A stretch of 64,000 nt of DNA from Desulfosarcina alkanivorans (GTDB taxonomy: Bacteria; Desulfobacterota; Desulfobacteria; Desulfobacterales; Desulfosarcinaceae), in the NCBI RefSeq assembly GCF_009688945.1, contig NZ_AP021874.1, positions 1,116,001 to 1,180,000 on the forward strand, in the 5' to 3' direction. Positions 31,999 through 39,165 of this stretch are shown here, piece after piece (the stretch's first letter is position 1; every line of letters starts with the position of its first letter). Under the pieces are notes generated by a model. The model made no database searches. It was not told the DNA's origin and saw only the letters and a list, made by a program, of their open reading frames with translations. A program made the translations under genes and the position numbers.

Positions 31999-33135
31999 AT
32001 GAAAGCTGACAACCGGATATTTCTTGAAAATCTGGAATGGTTTGATGAAAGCGGCCGGGAACTGGTCCACCGCCTGCCCGAAAAAGGGTCCGGCGAAATC
32101 AAATGGGGGGCCCAGCTCACCGTAAGGGAAAGTCAGGCCGGCGTCTTTTACTACAAGGGAAAAGCCGTCGAAGCCTTTGGCCCCGGTCGCCACACCCTGA
32201 AAACCGGCAATATCCCCATCCTCACCAAGATCGCCAGCCTGCCCTGGGGAATGACCAGCCCGTTGAGGGCGGAGATGTATTTCGTCAACATGAAGGTCTT
32301 CACCAACCTGAAATGGGGAACCCGGGACCCGGTGGCCTTCAAGGATGACGAACTGGGACTGATCCGGCTGCGGGCCTTCGGGGTCTTCAACCTGCGGGTG
32401 GTCCAGCCGGTGCTGTTCATCAACACCATGGTGGGCACCCAGGGAATGTTTACGACGGAAGAGATAGAGGAATACCTCAATCGGGTAATCGTCTCCCGCT
32501 TCAACGACTACATGGGCGAAACCATCGACTCGATCCTCAACCTGCCGGCCAAATACGACGAGCTGTCCGAAGGCCTGGCCAAGCGCCTCGAAGGGGATTT
32601 CAGGCACTTCGGTCTGGGCCTGACCCACCTGTACATGAATGCCATCACGCCGCCACCGGATGTGCAGAAGGCCATCGACGACCGCAGCCGCATGGGCGTC
32701 TTCGAAGACATGAACAAGCTCATGCAGATGAAATCGGCCATGGCCATGGAAAAGGCGTCGGAAGCCGACGGCGATGGCAGTATGGGCATGGGGACCAGCC
32801 TGGGGCTGATGATGCCGGCCATGTTTGCCCAGTATTTCAATGGCGCCGGAAAAGGCCCGCAGGGCGGCGCCCCGCCCGCCCAGCAGCAGGCCACCTGCCA
32901 GGAGTGTCAATGCAGTATCCCGCTGGCAGCCAAGTTCTGCCCCATGTGCGGCCACCAGCAGCTGGTTTTCGTCCAGTGCGGCAACTGCGGCAAAAACCTG
33001 GCGCCCAATGCAAAATTCTGCTCGCGCTGCGGTCATCCCACGGAAGAAAAACCCAAACCCGTCTTTTGCGCGAAGTGCGGCGCCGAAAACCTGGCCGGGG
33101 CCAAATTCTGCACCCGGTGCGGAGAGAAATATTAA
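31999..33135 (+). CDS. SPFH-domain protein with three C-terminal zinc ribbons (YdjI-like)
   Basis: 378 aa, no membrane segment. Residues about 30-240 form an SPFH/Band 7 domain of the 'virion core protein' YdjI type (VRESQAGVFYYKGKAVEAFG, PGRHTLKTGNIPILTKI, LRAFGVFNLRVVQPVLFI). A Met/Gly-rich linker (240-295) leads to three CxxC...CxxC ribbons: C300/C303/C314/C317, C327/C330/C341/C344 and C357/C360/C371/C374. In Bacillus subtilis the related YdjI scaffolds a membrane-stress complex (established for that family). It heads the four-gene cluster with the Lon-like protease. AACAGGAGAATCTGCCC is the ribosome site. The next gene overlaps its stop. Confidence 0.88.
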   Translation: MKADNRIFLENLEWFDESGRELVHRLPEKGSGEIKWGAQLTVRESQAGVFYYKGKAVEAFGPGRHTLKTGNIPILTKIASLPWGMTSPLRAEMYFVNMKVFTNLKWGTRDPVAFKDDELGLIRLRAFGVFNLRVVQPVLFINTMVGTQGMFTTEEIEEYLNRVIVSRFNDYMGETIDSILNLPAKYDELSEGLAKRLEGDFRHFGLGLTHLYMNAITPPPDVQKAIDDRSRMGVFEDMNKLMQMKSAMAMEKASEADGDGSMGMGTSLGLMMPAMFAQYFNGAGKGPQGGAPPAQQQATCQECQCSIPLAAKFCPMCGHQQLVFVQCGNCGKNLAPNAKFCSRCGHPTEEKPKPVFCAKCGAENLAGAKFCTRCGEKY

Positions 33136-34360
33136 TTTTCTCATCGACCATCAGTGCCCCCAGTGCGGCGCGCCGGCAGAACTCGACGAGACGGACCGTC
33201 TTTTTCAATGTGCGTTCTGCAAGGTAAAATCCTACCTCGTGGAGCAGGGATATTTCCGCTACCTGCTGCCCCATCGGGCGCCCGAAGGCCGGGACCTGGT
33301 GTATTTCCCCTACTGGCGCTTCAAGGGCATGCTCTTTTCCTGTCTGCCCGCCGGCATCCAGAACCGGTTTCTGGATGTCAGCCAGCAGGCGGCGCCATCG
33401 CCCCTTTTTCCCGCATCGGTCGGACTTCGCAGCCAGGCCATGAAACTCCGTTTTGTCAGCCCGGAGACCAAAGGATGGTTCATCAGCCCCTCCCGGCCCT
33501 TTCGCGGCGTCATGGAGACCTTTCTTGGCCGCTTCAACCGCGACACACCCGGGCCGATCCTGCACCAGGCCCATATCGGCGAGTCCGTCAGCCTGATTTA
33601 CGCCCCTTTTTACGCGGACCACCGGATCATGGACGCGGTGCTGAATCAGCCGGTGTCCGGCCCCCTGGATGAGCCCTTCGAAGCCAGCCGGCTGCCCGGG
33701 GGACCGGCGGACTGGCGCATCCGTTTCATCCCGACCCTGTGCCCGAACTGCGGCTGGGACATGCAGGGGCGCCGGGATGCCCTGGTACTGCACTGCAGCA
33801 ACTGCGACGCCATGTGGCGGGCGTCCCGACAGGGCATGACCCGCGTCAACGCAGCCCATATGCCGGGGCCCGAAAACGAAAACATCATCTACCTGCCCTT
33901 CTGGCGCATCAAGGCCGATATCTCCGGCATCGGCCTTGACCATTATGCGGATCTGGTCAAGGTAGCCAACCTTCCCAAAGTGATTCAGCCCGGCTGGGAC
34001 CGGGTTCCCTTCCACTTCTGGGGGCCGGCCTTCAAGGTGCGCCCCCAGAGCTTTCTGCGGTTGACCCACCATATCACCCTCGCCCAGCCCCGGGACCACC
34101 TGGCGGCCCACCTGCCCAAAGGGACGACCTACCCGGTCAACCTGCCGGTGTCCGAATCCGTCGAAACCCTCAAATTGAACCTGGCCGGCATCATCCGGCC
34201 CAAACGTGCGGTGCAGGACCGCATCGCCGACATCCAGGTCAAGCCGAACCGCTACCTGCTGGTCTACCTCCCCTTTGAAGTGCGCCACCACGACCTGGTC
34301 CAGACGACGTTCAACGTTGCCGTAAATCGGAACCAGCTGGCACTGGCGAGCAATCTGTAA
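33131..34360 (+). CDS. double zinc-ribbon protein, probably started at an ATT codon
   Basis: About 409 aa. The conserved region begins with a zinc ribbon (CPQCGAPAELDETD...CAFCKVKSY), so translation must start before 33155, yet no ATG, GTG or TTG lies in this frame between 33006 and there. ATT at 33131 overlaps the preceding TAA (ATTAA) and follows GGAGAGAAAT at ideal spacing. The frame could also start at an ATG near 33006 inside the upstream gene. A second ribbon (CPNCGWDMQGRRD...CSNC) sits mid-protein. Between and after are large mixed domains with repeated YFPYWRFKGM / YLPFWRIKAD patches, suggesting a duplicated module. No enzymatic motif; no membrane segment. It is likely to act with the SPFH partner. 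Confidence 0.78.
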   Translation: MNFLIDHQCPQCGAPAELDETDRLFQCAFCKVKSYLVEQGYFRYLLPHRAPEGRDLVYFPYWRFKGMLFSCLPAGIQNRFLDVSQQAAPSPLFPASVGLRSQAMKLRFVSPETKGWFISPSRPFRGVMETFLGRFNRDTPGPILHQAHIGESVSLIYAPFYADHRIMDAVLNQPVSGPLDEPFEASRLPGGPADWRIRFIPTLCPNCGWDMQGRRDALVLHCSNCDAMWRASRQGMTRVNAAHMPGPENENIIYLPFWRIKADISGIGLDHYADLVKVANLPKVIQPGWDRVPFHFWGPAFKVRPQSFLRLTHHITLAQPRDHLAAHLPKGTTYPVNLPVSESVETLKLNLAGIIRPKRAVQDRIADIQVKPNRYLLVYLPFEVRHHDLVQTTFNVAVNRNQLALASNL

Positions 34361-34680
34361 TACTCACCCGGATGACCGCACCCAGGTGTGCCGGATGGAT
34401 TTTCCCTTGAAACCGCACCCTTTTCATGTTTGAATAGTCCTGTTTTCAGACTGCCCGATGTCGACCGGTACAGGTATACAGATGACGGGGCATGTTCTCG
34501 TCCACGAATCATCTTTTCCTGATTGCTCCGTTCATCACAACCCATTGATTTCCCATTGTCAGGACGATCGCAGTGGCGTCGACCGCTTGCACGGCGCCTT
34601 CCCATAAAATGCCGGCAGTTCATGAGCCCAACCCGGACGGGGCGCCCCAAGGGGTGTTTCCTGAAACCAAAGGAGCAGAA
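34361..34680. other. 320-bp intergenic gap inside the SPFH/protease cluster
   Basis: No gene. It ends in AAAGGAG for the next gene. A GGGGCGCCCC palindrome occurs near 34640. It may hold a separate promoter for the membrane SPFH protein and protease, so the cluster may be two transcripts. Confidence 0.45.
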
Positions 34681-35643
34681 ATGGCCACACCGCTACCCAG
34701 TCAATTGCTGCGGCGATCCTTCGTAAAAACCGTCCTGCGCCGCCTCATTGCAGCCATCACCGTGGTCGGGTTGATCTACGGCCTGATTGCCGTTGTTTAT
34801 GCCACCAAGACCATCTTCAAGGTCAAGATGAACTATGCGGTTGTTCTGGAACGGTTCGGCGGGATCCGCCAGGCGGTCACGGATGTGGGCTGGCACGCCC
34901 GTCTGCCCTACTTCACGCGCATCGAGCAGGAAGTGCCGCTGATGAACCAGACCCTCCAGCTGGGCGGCACCCCGGCCCCCATGCGAATCATTTCCAAGGG
35001 CAACGTGGCCCTGTGGACGTCCGGAGTTCTCACCTATCGCATCCGCAATCTGAATACGTGGGCCATCGAGAACCTGAGCCCCCTGGATTTGCTCCAGGGA
35101 GACTACGACGGCATCGTCAAGGACATCCTCCAGGCCCAGCAGGTGGACCGGTTGATCAGCGACCGTGAATCCATCAAGGAGGCGATTTTCACGGCGTTGA
35201 AGTCACGCCCCATCAATATCGGCGGCCCCACGATTGAAAAAAAATATGGGGTCGAGGTCGTCAGTTTCGTGCTCAAGGAGACCCGTTTCGGAGACAAACT
35301 CGTGGAAGCCTCCGAAGAAAAAAAGCGCCGGGAGCTGATTGCCGAAGCCGATAATTATGCAGCGGACCAGGAGGCCAGCCGGATCCGCAAGCTCTACGCC
35401 GCCTATCTGGACGGCATCCAGAACCTGCAGCATTCGCTGGGCAGGGATGACGGATCCTCGGACACGGCACTGCTTCAGTTCCTCACGCAGCAGAAATGGG
35501 CCACCGCATATGAAAAACAACAGCTAGGCCAGAACACCGTGGTCATCCAGAATACCCGTGATGACACGCCGGCAGTCACCCTCCCCGCTTTCAATGCCCC
35601 CAACCGTTCCGAGGGAGAAGAAGATGACCAGACGGCTGACTAG
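34681..35643 (+). CDS. membrane-anchored SPFH/prohibitin-like protein
   Basis: 320 aa from ATG 34681, behind AAAGGAGCAGAA. A basic N terminus (LLRRSFVKTVLRRL) and one transmembrane helix at 17-38 (AAITVVGLIYGLIAVVYA) suggest an N-in topology. Then an SPFH/Band 7 domain (FKVKMNYAVVLERFGGIRQ, GWHARLPYFTRIEQEVPLM, LTYRIRNLNTWAIEN) and the family's C-terminal helix (EASEEKKRRELIAEADNYAA). HflC/HflK/prohibitin proteins with this layout assemble rings around AAA proteases. Its stop overlaps the protease gene by 20 bases, strong evidence of coupled translation. Confidence 0.9.
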   Translation: MATPLPSQLLRRSFVKTVLRRLIAAITVVGLIYGLIAVVYATKTIFKVKMNYAVVLERFGGIRQAVTDVGWHARLPYFTRIEQEVPLMNQTLQLGGTPAPMRIISKGNVALWTSGVLTYRIRNLNTWAIENLSPLDLLQGDYDGIVKDILQAQQVDRLISDRESIKEAIFTALKSRPINIGGPTIEKKYGVEVVSFVLKETRFGDKLVEASEEKKRRELIAEADNYAADQEASRIRKLYAAYLDGIQNLQHSLGRDDGSSDTALLQFLTQQKWATAYEKQQLGQNTVVIQNTRDDTPAVTLPAFNAPNRSEGEEDDQTAD

Positions 35644-38600
35644 AGAGATCACCTACGTCCAACTGACGGAAAGCCGGATCCGGGAGATCAAGGACCTCGT
35701 GGCCGCCTGGCCTCAGGAGACCAAAGCCTTCATGCGGGCCCGCCTCAATCAATACCGGCCGCCCATGGGATTGATCAACACGGTCCTGGAGACCTTTCTC
35801 TCCTTTTTTGTAGAAGCCCCTGAAAAAACCTTCAACGTCCTCAAAGACCCGGATATCCTCACCGACTGGCAGATGCGGTTCGAGATTTCGGGCCATACCA
35901 ACCCCCAGGAGGCCTGGAACAAAATCCTCGAAAAGGAGGTATCCGCCAAAGACTATCGTTACCTGATCTCTCTTCTGGACAAAGAACTGGTCGACGTCCA
36001 TATCCCCGTCGAACTCTACGACCTGTTCGAGAAAGTCTATCGCGCCCACCTCCGAAAAGAGTACATTTCGGATGCCAGCGTTCCCAAAGCGTCCCTGCTC
36101 CTGTTTGTCGGCCCGTCCGGGAGCGGAAAAACGTCCACCGTCAACCAGGCCATTGACCGGATCATTTTCGGAAACGACGTATTGCCGGAAGTGGATCTTC
36201 ATCAAAAAAAAGAAGAAGTGCTCGCCGGTGAACCCTTTTGGAAAACCATTGAAGAAATCGATCCGACGCTGGCCATTGAAATGTCCCGGCGAAAGAAACT
36301 GAAGTTTTACAAGCGTCTGTCCAGGATCCCCCTGTTGCGGCGAATCCTGAAAAAAAGGATCGGGCAGGGGCTGTCCAAACTCCAGGAACAGGGTATCTGG
36401 GTGGACTATGCCATGGTCACCCCCAATGATTTCCAGACCGCGCTGGCCGGTGAACCCGGCAACTATTTTAAAAAAGCCCTGGGCGACCCCCGGAAAACGT
36501 CGATCCGGCATGTCGAAGAGGCCCACAGCGCTTTCGGGAAAGCCACCGGCCGGGATTCCGGCGTTGCCCGCCAGCAACGGACCCTCGTGGACACCTCCAA
36601 TATCGTTCTGGACGAAATCATCAGCGGCAAAAGGGATTGCCTGCTCATCGCCACCACGGATCAGCCCGAACGCTTCGACGGCGCCATCTACCGCCGATTT
36701 GTGGAAAAAGGCAGCATCATCAACATTTCCGATTACTGGACCAATCCGGAGAACCTCAAGGAAGTGGTGCGGCTCGAACTGCTCAGGAACGACATCCTGG
36801 TGGCGTCCGACCAGAACGAAAACGCATGCCAGTCAGCCAAATGCCTGCTGCCGAAAGACGTATCGGAGACGGTGGACAAGCTCTACGCCATTTTCAGGGA
36901 ACGCACGTTGAAAGTGATCCCCTCCTACGTGCGAAAACTGGTCCATTCCATCATCCAGATCAAGGGGGATTTCAACGCCTCCTACCTGGACGATGCCATG
37001 CTGGTGAGAAAAGCCTTTGAACTGGTGGCCCAGAACTCCTACGGCGATCTTTACAAAAAAGTGGTCGGCCGCATGGATCGGGATGTCAAATGGGAAGCCT
37101 ACGTGGGAAGCATCAAGGACATCTTTTCGGAGATGACCAATAATTGCCTGTATTACAATGTCAGCGAAGAAAAAGGCGTGGTGCTCAACGGCCCGCCGGG
37201 AAGCGGCAAAACCTTTCTGGTGCGCACCTGGCTGAGCGAGAACACCGAGGTTCACGACATCGCCACCAGCGCCAGCGCCCTGCAGGACCCGGCCAACCCC
37301 GTCGACGGCGCGGTGGACAACCTGGAAAAAGTATACGACATCGCCAAAATGATCGCACCGACCGTGGTTTTCTTCGATGAAGGGGATGCCCTGGCACCCA
37401 AACGCAGCGGTACCGGCGGCAATCCGTCTGACAAACTGACCAATAAATTCCTGAATCTGATCGATGGGGAAACACCGCTGCACAAAGTGTTCACCGTGCT
37501 CACCACCAACCGCCTGGATATTCTGGATCCGGCCCTGATTCGTTCCAAGCGCCTGAAGGTACAGGAGATCAAGGGCCTGCTGAAGAAAAAGGATATCGCT
37601 CAAATCGTGGAAAACGCGTTGACGGAGATTCCCCTGGCACCGGATCTGGACACGGACCGTATCGTCGAGGCGGCCAAGGGCATCTGCAATACGCCGGCGG
37701 ATTACGCCGCCTTTGTCGAAAAAGCCAGGTCCCTGCGCAATACGGAGTTCGAGGTCATCCAGCGCCTCCGTCAGATTCGCCATGACCCCATAAAAGCCCG
37801 GGAAAATTTCGTCAAATTCAACTTCAAGACGCTCATGGGAATCCTGGAAGCGGCCGATCGGGAAAGCCGGCTGAAAAAAGCCGCCCGGGGTGCGCCTGAA
37901 CGGTTCCTGGACAACTATGAAGCGATTTTAAAATTGCTGAAACCGATCGAAGGGCCGCAGGACTATCCCATGGTCGCCAGCCATCTCAAGTCGGCCCGGC
38001 ACGAAATCTCGGAAAGTCCGACCAAAAAGGGCAAGGTGGTGCTCGATGACTTCCTGGAGGCGGAGTTGAGCCAGGAGCCTCAAGTGGGGTTCATCATCGG
38101 CGTGGGCGCCAACGACGTGACCGGCGTTCTTTTGCCCATCGCCACCAGCCTCACCTACAGCCTGTCTTCGGAAAAGGTCATGGTCACCGGCGCGGTGTCA
38201 TCATCGTCTTCGGCCGGCGCCCAGATGGAAATGGCCGTCCAGATGACCCAGCAGAGCGCCCATGAAGCCCTGACCATGGTCAAAAACTACCTGCAGGACA
38301 TGGACCCCAAGGTCAGCGCCGCCCGGCTGCTCGGCGAGTTCCTGGACAAGTATACCATCCACCACCAGCTGCTTTCCGCGTCCTACAGCGTGGGCGGACC
38401 GTCTGCGGGATACGCCCTGGCCATCAACACCCTGTCGGCGCTGATGCACCTCCCCGTGTACCATGACTTCGGCATCACGGGGGCGCCCTGGACCAAAGGC
38501 GTCAAACGCGGCGAGGTGGGCGGTTCGGTCATCATCGGCGGCCAGCGTAAAAAAACGGAAAAGGTGCTCATGTACCTCCGGCGCATGTACATGCCGTTAA

Positions 38601-39037
38601 AAAATTACATGGATCTCGAACAGGAGTTCCTGGTCAACTATTGGGACCAGGACAAGGATATTCTCGGGGTCACCCATTTCGGCGATCTGGTGCCCGAAGT
38701 GATCTGGCTGGACCCTGAGTACGAACAGGTCATTCAGGACCTGATTGCCCTCAGGATCCGATACAAAAGGGAGAAATACCAGGGGCAGCGGCCCGATGAA
38801 GCGATCAAAGCGGAGATCCTGAAAAAGAAAGAAATTCTGAAAATCCGTGCCGAAAAAGAGATTAAAAACCGCCTGATTGCCCTGCGCCGCTACCTGAGAA
38901 GCCCGGCAAAGGATCCTCACCTGTCACTGGAAGAAATATACCGCCGGCGGGAATCGCCCCTGAACCGTATGGCCGATCCGGTCAAGCGGTTGCTCCAGAA
39001 AGTGCGTTCACGAAAGAAAAAATTGACCGCTTCGTAA
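35624..39037 (+). CDS. dual-AAA+ Lon-like ATP-dependent protease
   Basis: 1137 aa from ATG 35624 (GAGGGAGAAGAAG upstream). N domain 1-150; AAA module 1 with Walker A GPSGSGKT (163-170), a Walker-B-like SIRHVEEAH (about 293-301) and sensor LIATTDQPERFD; AAA module 2 with Walker A GPPGSGKT (523-530), Walker B VVFFDEGD (581-588), sensor VLTTNRLD and an arginine-finger region DPALIRSKRL; a Lon (S16) protease domain from about 815, with catalytic Ser927 in SVGGPSAGYA and Lys977 in IGGQRKKTEK, 50 residues apart (43 in E. coli Lon). A basic helical tail (1040-1137) follows. No Lon N-terminal substrate domain. Likely an ATP-dependent membrane-linked protease with the SPFH proteins. Its TAA lies in a dispersed repeat. 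Confidence 0.88.
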   Translation: MTRRLTREITYVQLTESRIREIKDLVAAWPQETKAFMRARLNQYRPPMGLINTVLETFLSFFVEAPEKTFNVLKDPDILTDWQMRFEISGHTNPQEAWNKILEKEVSAKDYRYLISLLDKELVDVHIPVELYDLFEKVYRAHLRKEYISDASVPKASLLLFVGPSGSGKTSTVNQAIDRIIFGNDVLPEVDLHQKKEEVLAGEPFWKTIEEIDPTLAIEMSRRKKLKFYKRLSRIPLLRRILKKRIGQGLSKLQEQGIWVDYAMVTPNDFQTALAGEPGNYFKKALGDPRKTSIRHVEEAHSAFGKATGRDSGVARQQRTLVDTSNIVLDEIISGKRDCLLIATTDQPERFDGAIYRRFVEKGSIINISDYWTNPENLKEVVRLELLRNDILVASDQNENACQSAKCLLPKDVSETVDKLYAIFRERTLKVIPSYVRKLVHSIIQIKGDFNASYLDDAMLVRKAFELVAQNSYGDLYKKVVGRMDRDVKWEAYVGSIKDIFSEMTNNCLYYNVSEEKGVVLNGPPGSGKTFLVRTWLSENTEVHDIATSASALQDPANPVDGAVDNLEKVYDIAKMIAPTVVFFDEGDALAPKRSGTGGNPSDKLTNKFLNLIDGETPLHKVFTVLTTNRLDILDPALIRSKRLKVQEIKGLLKKKDIAQIVENALTEIPLAPDLDTDRIVEAAKGICNTPADYAAFVEKARSLRNTEFEVIQRLRQIRHDPIKARENFVKFNFKTLMGILEAADRESRLKKAARGAPERFLDNYEAILKLLKPIEGPQDYPMVASHLKSARHEISESPTKKGKVVLDDFLEAELSQEPQVGFIIGVGANDVTGVLLPIATSLTYSLSSEKVMVTGAVSSSSSAGAQMEMAVQMTQQSAHEALTMVKNYLQDMDPKVSAARLLGEFLDKYTIHHQLLSASYSVGGPSAGYALAINTLSALMHLPVYHDFGITGAPWTKGVKRGEVGGSVIIGGQRKKTEKVLMYLRRMYMPLKNYMDLEQEFLVNYWDQDKDILGVTHFGDLVPEVIWLDPEYEQVIQDLIALRIRYKREKYQGQRPDEAIKAEILKKKEILKIRAEKEIKNRLIALRRYLRSPAKDPHLSLEEIYRRRESPLNRMADPVKRLLQKVRSRKKKLTAS

Positions 39038-39165
39038 AAAGCTTTTTCAGGCCACCCATGGCCATATATCCCAATATCCGAAAGGAACCGAAAAGGCGTG
39101 GGAGCGGCTTCCAGCCGCGATCATCCCATTGCATCGCGGCTGGAAGCCGCTCCCACGAAAAAAGA
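39030..39165. repeat. dispersed intergenic palindromic repeat, copy 2
   Basis: Partner of 16216-16343. It keeps a nearly complete long hairpin: GGAGCGGCTTCCAGCCGCGA and its inverse ending GAAGCCGCTCC around a short loop. The stop codon of the protease gene (TTCGTAA) is part of the repeat. Confidence 0.78.

Follow-up and report, generated by a model that had tools for sequence, protein, structure and literature searches.

Rings of SPFH proteins are thought to govern FtsH-type proteases, and HflKC and the prohibitins, which control the AAA protease FtsH, are the precedent for such SPFH control (PMC2636767). Other descriptions bear on parts of the locus presented here: YdjI, a probably soluble SPFH protein, requires YdjG and YdjH for its localization to the membrane (PMC8581546, PMC11237479); a bacterial protein with two AAA+ domains, the N-terminal copy of which is called inactive, co-occurs with PspA (PMC11237479); and the S16 architectures tabulated in PMC2605481 (Table 3), which covers only two deltaproteobacterial genomes, include no AAA-AAA-Lon_C arrangement. 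Here, we describe four consecutive plus-strand genes, A to D, of Desulfosarcina alkanivorans, located in a 64,000-nucleotide stretch of contig NZ_AP021874.1 (assembly GCF_009688945.1, positions 1,116,001 to 1,180,000; the window, to which all coordinates refer). An earlier note had proposed that these genes constitute one membrane quality-control system, and all four of the reading frames that it named are present. The layout is nevertheless one of two overlapping pairs, A–B and C–D, because 320 bases (34361 to 34680, plus strand), absent from that description, part B from C; no promoter- or terminator-like site is listed in this gap by a site scan whose counts are at chance level. We consider it moderately likely that C–D is an operon for a dedicated membrane-linked ATP-dependent protease, with C, a predicted membrane SPFH protein, holding the protease D at the membrane. 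Our literature search found no description of a membrane SPFH protein paired with a Cdc48-like double motor and a Lon-type peptidase. The pair bears on which other proteases SPFH rings govern, and why.

Linkage and distribution of the C–D pair

Gene C (34681 to 35643, plus strand; 320 amino acids) and gene D (35624 to 39037, plus strand; 1137 amino acids) overlap by 20 bases, reproducing the junction described previously. We followed both genes in an order-level sample of 76 genomes that includes the window's genome (G000), in a phylum-level sample of 345 genomes (thresholds of E ≤ 1e-60 for D, ≤ 1e-40 for C, ≤ 1e-10 for B, and ≤ 1e-60 for A), and in a scan of named contigs that returned 128 relatives of D, 80 of which were kept and examined as named loci. 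In the order sample, C was counted at E below 1e-130 and D at an E value of 0 with large pieces included; all 76 genomes give weaker AAA cross-matches.

C lies directly 5' of D in 74/74 named loci whose contig extends that far, the remaining 6 of the 80 loci starting at, or ~110 bases or less from, a contig end. From the C stop to the D start, the median distance is 5.5 bases (range, −71 to 202; 74 loci), with the two genes overlapping in 28/74 loci and spaced within 30 bases in 61/74. The identical 12 of 345 phylum genomes carry C and D (Fisher 2e-22, a value that ignores shared ancestry), and the genes are adjacent in 12/12. Likewise, D (full or in large pieces) occurs in 18/76 order-level genomes and C in 17/76, all 17 falling among those 18 and each C standing beside D; in the eighteenth D genome (G060), D begins at base 3 of its contig. 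Sequence distances of C and D correlate across the 74 loci (r = 0.89), as they would for any pair of linked genes. With the crude gene calling applied to the named loci, no further conserved gene family was found around C–D. Judged from gene order, C–D is a near-obligate two-gene operon. The coupling of an SPFH protein to an AAA protease, on which the earlier note had built its proposal, is strongly supported at the gene level for C–D; for the four genes as a unit it does not.

By title, the named relatives of D (80 kept of 128) belong to Desulfobacterota or to unnamed Deltaproteobacteria/Proteobacteria, and the lowest identity (52%) is in Desulfuromonadales. Viral contigs yielded no relative, and none of the plasmid records reaches 80% coverage of D, which suggests that C–D is chromosomal. 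Stop codons lie inside the aligned D stretch of two named loci (L106 and L128). Just 3' of D in the window, an inverted repeat with arms of ~25 bases is visible by eye at about 39097 to 39157; it may be a terminator or belong to a repetitive extragenic element.

A double AAA motor with a Lon-type peptidase, and its SPFH partner

By its domains, D consists of a tandem of classical AAA modules in the Cdc48/p97 arrangement, followed by an S16 (Lon) peptidase, and is not an ordinary Lon; the label of Lon-like protease given to it previously fits the peptidase (Lon_C with a Ser-Lys dyad) but not the motor, which is Cdc48/p97-like. Pfam matches include classical AAA (PF00004, E 2.4e-29), an upstream P-loop match at residues 143 to 178, and Lon_C (27.3 bits; cut-off, 21.1). 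The first AAA module (residues 122 to 470; 35987 to 37033, plus strand) is weak by sequence and clear by model, where it has a classical AAA fold, and the second (residues 505 to 717; 37136 to 37774, plus strand) is p97 D2-like by sequence. Both by profile and by model, the tandem AAA part is closest to p97/Cdc48; more specifically, the p97 profile match has an E value of 1.4e-47 over the whole chain and scores of 91.3 bits for the D2 stretch and 72.7 for the D1 stretch. Walker residues are kept in both modules, and D585, E586, N629, R640, and R643 are kept in 81/81 of the sequences across which residue conservation was counted. By profile, the peptidase (residues 805 to 1035; 38036 to 38728, plus strand) matches 1xhk, the protease domain of an archaeal LonB (E 2.5e-6), and both residues of its S16 dyad align with a Ser and a Lys there. 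Of this dyad, Ser927 (codon 38402 to 38404, plus strand), in GGPSAG, is present in 81/81 sequences and Lys977 (codon 38552 to 38554, plus strand) in 80/81, with one alignment gap. The N-terminal 120 residues match no identified family, and among the 25 strongest of D's 34 Pfam matches there is no NfeD or ClpP-type family. D is probably soluble, since its hydropathy peaks inside the peptidase at 1.66, versus 2.50 for the hydrophobic segment of C; some relatives reach 2.07 in the peptidase core.

These features also bear on whether D chiefly extracts or remodels membrane complexes in the manner of Cdc48, its peptidase being auxiliary or silent. The p97/Cdc48 matches of the tandem AAA part and the missing pore-loop aromatic of the second module would be in keeping with such a role, but a Lon_C score above cut-off and the nearly invariant Ser927 and Lys977 argue for a working peptidase; a silent one is hard to hold, because conservation of the dyad is hard to explain without catalysis. 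We thus regard this explanation as decidedly improbable.

C matches Band_7 (E 1.9e-16) and has one hydrophobic segment (residues 22 to 40; 34744 to 34800, plus strand), which is preceded by a 21-residue tail of net charge +5. At E 0.001, no other C relative was found in its own genome, in which Band_7 matches 14 stretches. Across 16 order-level sequences, the N-tail of ~20 residues has a net charge of +2 to +6 and is positive in 16/16, and the 15 residues after the segment carry +3 to +4; in 2/16 sequences, the tail is not the more positive side. By the positive-inside rule, a positive tail tends to stay inside. This pattern favors an N-in C whose SPFH domain would lie outside, across the membrane from D, as the earlier note had cautioned; the caution stands, with the residues after the segment being positive as well. 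Accommodating it would mean either that the short tail of C docks D or that the segment is a hairpin beneath a cytosolic SPFH ring, and we provisionally favor tail docking. The second geometry, in which a hairpin or reversed helix would let a cytosolic QmcA/stomatin-like ring directly cap D, is compatible with a tethered protease, and we hold it to be somewhat unlikely. By profile, the nearest solved SPFH relatives of C, all weak matches, are QmcA (8z5g, E 0.0076), which we take to be the same protein as YbbK, and stomatin (E 0.03 to 0.052). A capping ring would place C and D on one side of the membrane, and the charges flanking the segment are similar on both sides in some sequences. In the same direction, YbbK faces the cytoplasm (PMC2636767). 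The weakness of the QmcA and stomatin matches and the basic tail before the segment, which favors tail inside and SPFH domain outside, count against it.

The constant association of one SPFH gene with one protease gene would also fit a D that mainly processes C and thereby switches the SPFH scaffold, instead of degrading other substrates. A parallel is the cleavage of the stomatin homologue PH1511 by its operon partner, the NfeD-type protease PH1510 (PMC13086221). Consistent with this, the C-terminal end of C is its most variable part after the N-tail. Two AAA modules with conserved ATPase residues, however, suggest unfolding beyond the clipping of a tail, and the C-terminal tail of an N-in C would lie across the membrane from D. 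We consider processing of C unlikely to be the main role of D.

In the mechanism that we favor, that of a tethered protease, C would build a ring or dome via its SPFH domain, with one N-terminal membrane helix per subunit as anchor, and D, probably cytosolic, would be ring-shaped and combine a stack of two Cdc48/p97-like AAA tiers with a chamber for its Lon-type Ser-Lys peptidase. C would tether D to the membrane, for which the conserved, positively charged N-tail of C is the simplest candidate, and D would extract, unfold, and cut a restricted set of membrane or membrane-associated proteins. C–D would act alongside the canonical HflKC-FtsH and Lon enzymes. A–B is a separate YdjI-like module, next door in a few relatives. 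Several observations weigh against this mechanism, in addition to the topology favored for C. Sharing an operon is no proof of contact between C and D, and ring assembly, proteolysis, the substrates, and the cellular side are likewise proposed from the features above. The aromatic residues found in the pore loop of p97 D2 are missing from the second AAA module, and threading may therefore differ. In the AlphaFold model of D, the predicted local distance difference test score (pLDDT) is <50 over the core of the second AAA module (about residues 475 to 653, with short breaks) and over much of the peptidase (residues 797 to 876, 910 to 927, and 949 to 978). Given that hydropathy rises to 2.07 in the peptidase core in some relatives, D itself may contact the membrane. 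Finally, one C match (G198) and one D match (G002) contain TAA.

The A–B pair and the start of gene B

Gene A (31999 to 33135, plus strand; 378 amino acids) encodes a zinc-ribbon SPFH protein, as labeled earlier, which is of the YdjI type with the ribbons at the C terminus: it matches Band_7_1 (PF13421, E 1.4e-65, 221.3 bits; cut-off, 24) and a zinc-ribbon family (PF13240, 61.1 bits; cut-off, 25), and has three zinc-ribbon stretches and no strong hydrophobic segment. Gene B (33131 to 34360, plus strand; 409 codons) likewise deserves its description as a double zinc-ribbon protein, with two CxxC...CxxC motifs, one per half. B matches no Pfam family above cut-off, and hhalign (probability, 93.4; E 2.5e-7) shows that a unit comprising a zinc ribbon and a Pro-[FY]-Trp motif region is duplicated within it. 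Its predicted model is confident (pLDDT 86.6; predicted template modeling score 0.85) and has no clear match in the PDB; no strong hydrophobic segment is present (maximum 19-residue hydropathy, 0.81).

Judged from their distribution, A and B are a second, commoner two-gene pair, separate from C–D. At the phylum thresholds, B was detected in 99/345 genomes, A in 110/345, and both in 95, leaving A without B in fifteen and B without A in four. In 87 of the 95, the two genes are no more than 1500 bases apart (no more than 150 in 64 of these 87); in the other 8, they are on different contigs (seven genomes) or 1888 bases apart (one). Like the pairing of C with D, that of A with B far exceeds chance. 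The order sample has B in 44/76 genomes, with an A match beside it on the same contig in 42; in the exceptions, B lies near a contig end (G014) or A is on another contig (G032).

Contact between the two pairs is rare. Although 16/18 order-level D genomes also have B, a contiguous run of all four genes is confined to the window's genome and G029; in the other 14, B and D lie on different draft contigs, which set no distance between them. C–D occurs without detected A or B in two order-level genomes (G066 and G047) and in four of the 12 C–D genomes of the phylum sample (G198, G293, G333, and G373); the other eight have A and B, contiguous with C–D only in the window's genome. The pairs are ~500 kb apart in the closed genome G096, and 91/99 B genomes of the phylum sample are without C–D. 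Among 51 named loci with at least 3500 bases 5' of C, 46 carry neither A nor B there, and five have B, or A and B, with a B–C gap of 121 to 473 bases: the four genes are contiguous in L069, L072, L073, and L103, and L070 has B only. L073 and G029 have the same junction and may be one species. On contig C87 of G051 (loci L027 and L204), C is missing, and the D fragment (residues 450 to 557, 69% identical) that follows A–B appears to be what is left of a C–D pair once next to A–B.

A single quality-control system of all four genes, in which A–B would sense or recruit and C–D degrade, would account for the contiguity in the window, G029, and the four loci above, for B alone 5' of C in L070, for the D fragment behind A–B in G051, and for a co-occurrence of the pairs above random (order sample, 16/18 versus 28/58, Fisher 0.002; phylum sample, 8/12 versus 91/333, Fisher 0.006; shared ancestry is ignored in both). 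The abundance of B without C–D, the C–D genomes that have neither A nor B or have them elsewhere, and a B–C gap of 121 to 473 bases in five relatives and 320 in the window all argue against it, and we deem it very improbable. The four-gene unit of the earlier note is thus not borne out in Desulfobacterota: homologs regularly occur apart between the two pairs, but not within them.

Homology of B starts at an ATT, its apparent start codon, which overlaps the TAA stop codon of A (ATTAA), as had been pointed out; a Shine-Dalgarno GGAG lies inside gene A (33121 to 33124, plus strand), six bases 5' of the ATT. A survey of B starts in 63 loci gave 58 B rows, five loci being without the motif. L173 and L073 are duplicates of L060 and L064, and L044 is truncated at the edge of its contig. 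In 14/58 rows (the window, L041, L042, L045, L046, L049, L050, L053, L057, L061, L069, L070, L175, and L184), no ATG, GTG, or TTG occurs within 16 codons 5' of the first zinc-ribbon Cys, and the codon eight before this Cys is ATT (8 rows) or ATC (6 rows); 12 other rows have ATG there. Upstream starts are possible in L175 and L046, which have an in-frame ATG at codons 17 and 26, respectively. L052, L055, and L103 also have ATT at the position but with ATG or GTG farther 5', and were taken to have standard starts. A Shine-Dalgarno tetramer is found 4 to 11 bases 5' of the B start in 13/14 rows versus 32/250 internal in-frame ATT/ATC codons (Fisher 2.5e-10). Where A and B overlap, this tetramer falls on conserved codons of A and does not count as independent support; the ATC rows, in which the two genes are separated, have it in 6/6. 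In L042, L046, and L050, A and B are parted by 279, 109, and 188 bases, respectively, which by eye are repeat- or inverted-repeat-like, and B keeps ATC.

B thus appears to start at AUU or AUC in 14/58 rows, a conserved non-canonical start as read from these alignments. Conserved non-canonical starts are described in PMC13009471 for few genes, namely infC, cvfC1, ccpN, and pcnB (the last via a reference title), where they lower expression and are modulated by IF3. By analogy, the weak start probably keeps B scarce relative to A.

Comparison with described SPFH, AAA, and Lon systems

Tentatively, we propose that C–D founds a further class of SPFH-governed membrane proteolysis, in which an SPFH ring at the inner membrane would tether a p97-like double motor that carries its own Lon peptidase, as a one-polypeptide bacterial counterpart of Cdc48 plus proteasome; the adjoining gene B would add a conserved AUU/AUC-initiated gene, a start that probably keeps B scarce versus the ring protein A. 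If so, the SPFH-protease alliance would have arisen with unrelated peptidases. C–D would offer a clean two-gene system for what an SPFH protein does to its protease, D a bacterial machine that fuses Cdc48-like unfolding and Lon-type proteolysis, and gene B a phylogenetically traceable case of AUU/AUC initiation.

Like HflK-HflC/FtsH and prohibitin/FtsH-type systems, C–D couples an SPFH gene to a classical-AAA protease gene. HflK and HflC each have a single N-terminal membrane segment, as C does, and the orientation favored for C (tail inside, SPFH domain outside) is the same. D differs from FtsH in its two AAA modules, in an S16 Ser-Lys peptidase instead of a zinc M41 one, and in having no clear membrane segment, and C–D has one SPFH partner versus HflK plus HflC; in E. 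coli-type genomes, moreover, hflKC need not adjoin ftsH. Membership in HflKC-FtsH was rejected: C matches neither the HflK nor the HflC model (TIGR01933, TIGR01932) at E 0.1, and D, with its Lon_C peptidase, matches FtsH models over residues 517 to 702 only, far below cut-off (65.2 and 72.6 bits; cut-offs, 600 and 1008). A canonical hflK-hflC-ftsH cluster (hflK, E 1.7e-82; hflC, E 8.2e-83) lies elsewhere in the window's genome, which also has nine Lon_C matches, five of them full-strength (>270 bits); C–D is therefore an addition and not a replacement.

As a regular Lon, D was rejected as well, since the endopeptidase La model (TIGR00763) covers residues 805 to 1000 only (38.8 bits; cut-off, 608.05) and the motor matches p97/Cdc48. 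D shares Lon_C and the Ser-Lys dyad with LonA and LonB, and its best solved match is archaeal LonB, whereas its GGPSAG Ser context is nearer to the LonA motif than to the LonB motif quoted in PMC2605481. With Cdc48/p97, D shares tandem classical AAA modules, the second p97 D2-like by profile, but differs by the fused peptidase, the unassigned N-terminal 120 residues, and the absent pore-loop aromatic in the second module; its score against the CDC48 model (TIGR01243; 83.6 bits, cut-off 802.65) rejects membership. The PspA-linked protein found with membrane-stress genes likewise has two AAA+ domains in one bacterial protein; compared by its description in PMC11237479, it differs from D, which keeps Walker residues in both modules and has an S16 peptidase where that description names none.

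For A–B, the nearest counterpart is the B. subtilis PspA-YdjGHI system: A resembles YdjI in combining Band_7_1 with C-terminal zinc ribbons, and B, compared by description, has two zinc ribbons as YdjG does but lacks a membrane segment and carries its ribbons in an internal duplication (PMC11237479). NfeD1b/stomatin (PH1510/PH1511) is likewise a two-gene operon of an SPFH protein and a serine peptidase (PMC2636767), NfeD1b carrying a ClpP-type domain whereas D is an ATPase-linked S16 enzyme. By the tests made, C–D falls outside HflKC-FtsH, Lon, and Cdc48, and we infer that it works like the SPFH-coupled AAA proteases, as a further kind of them.

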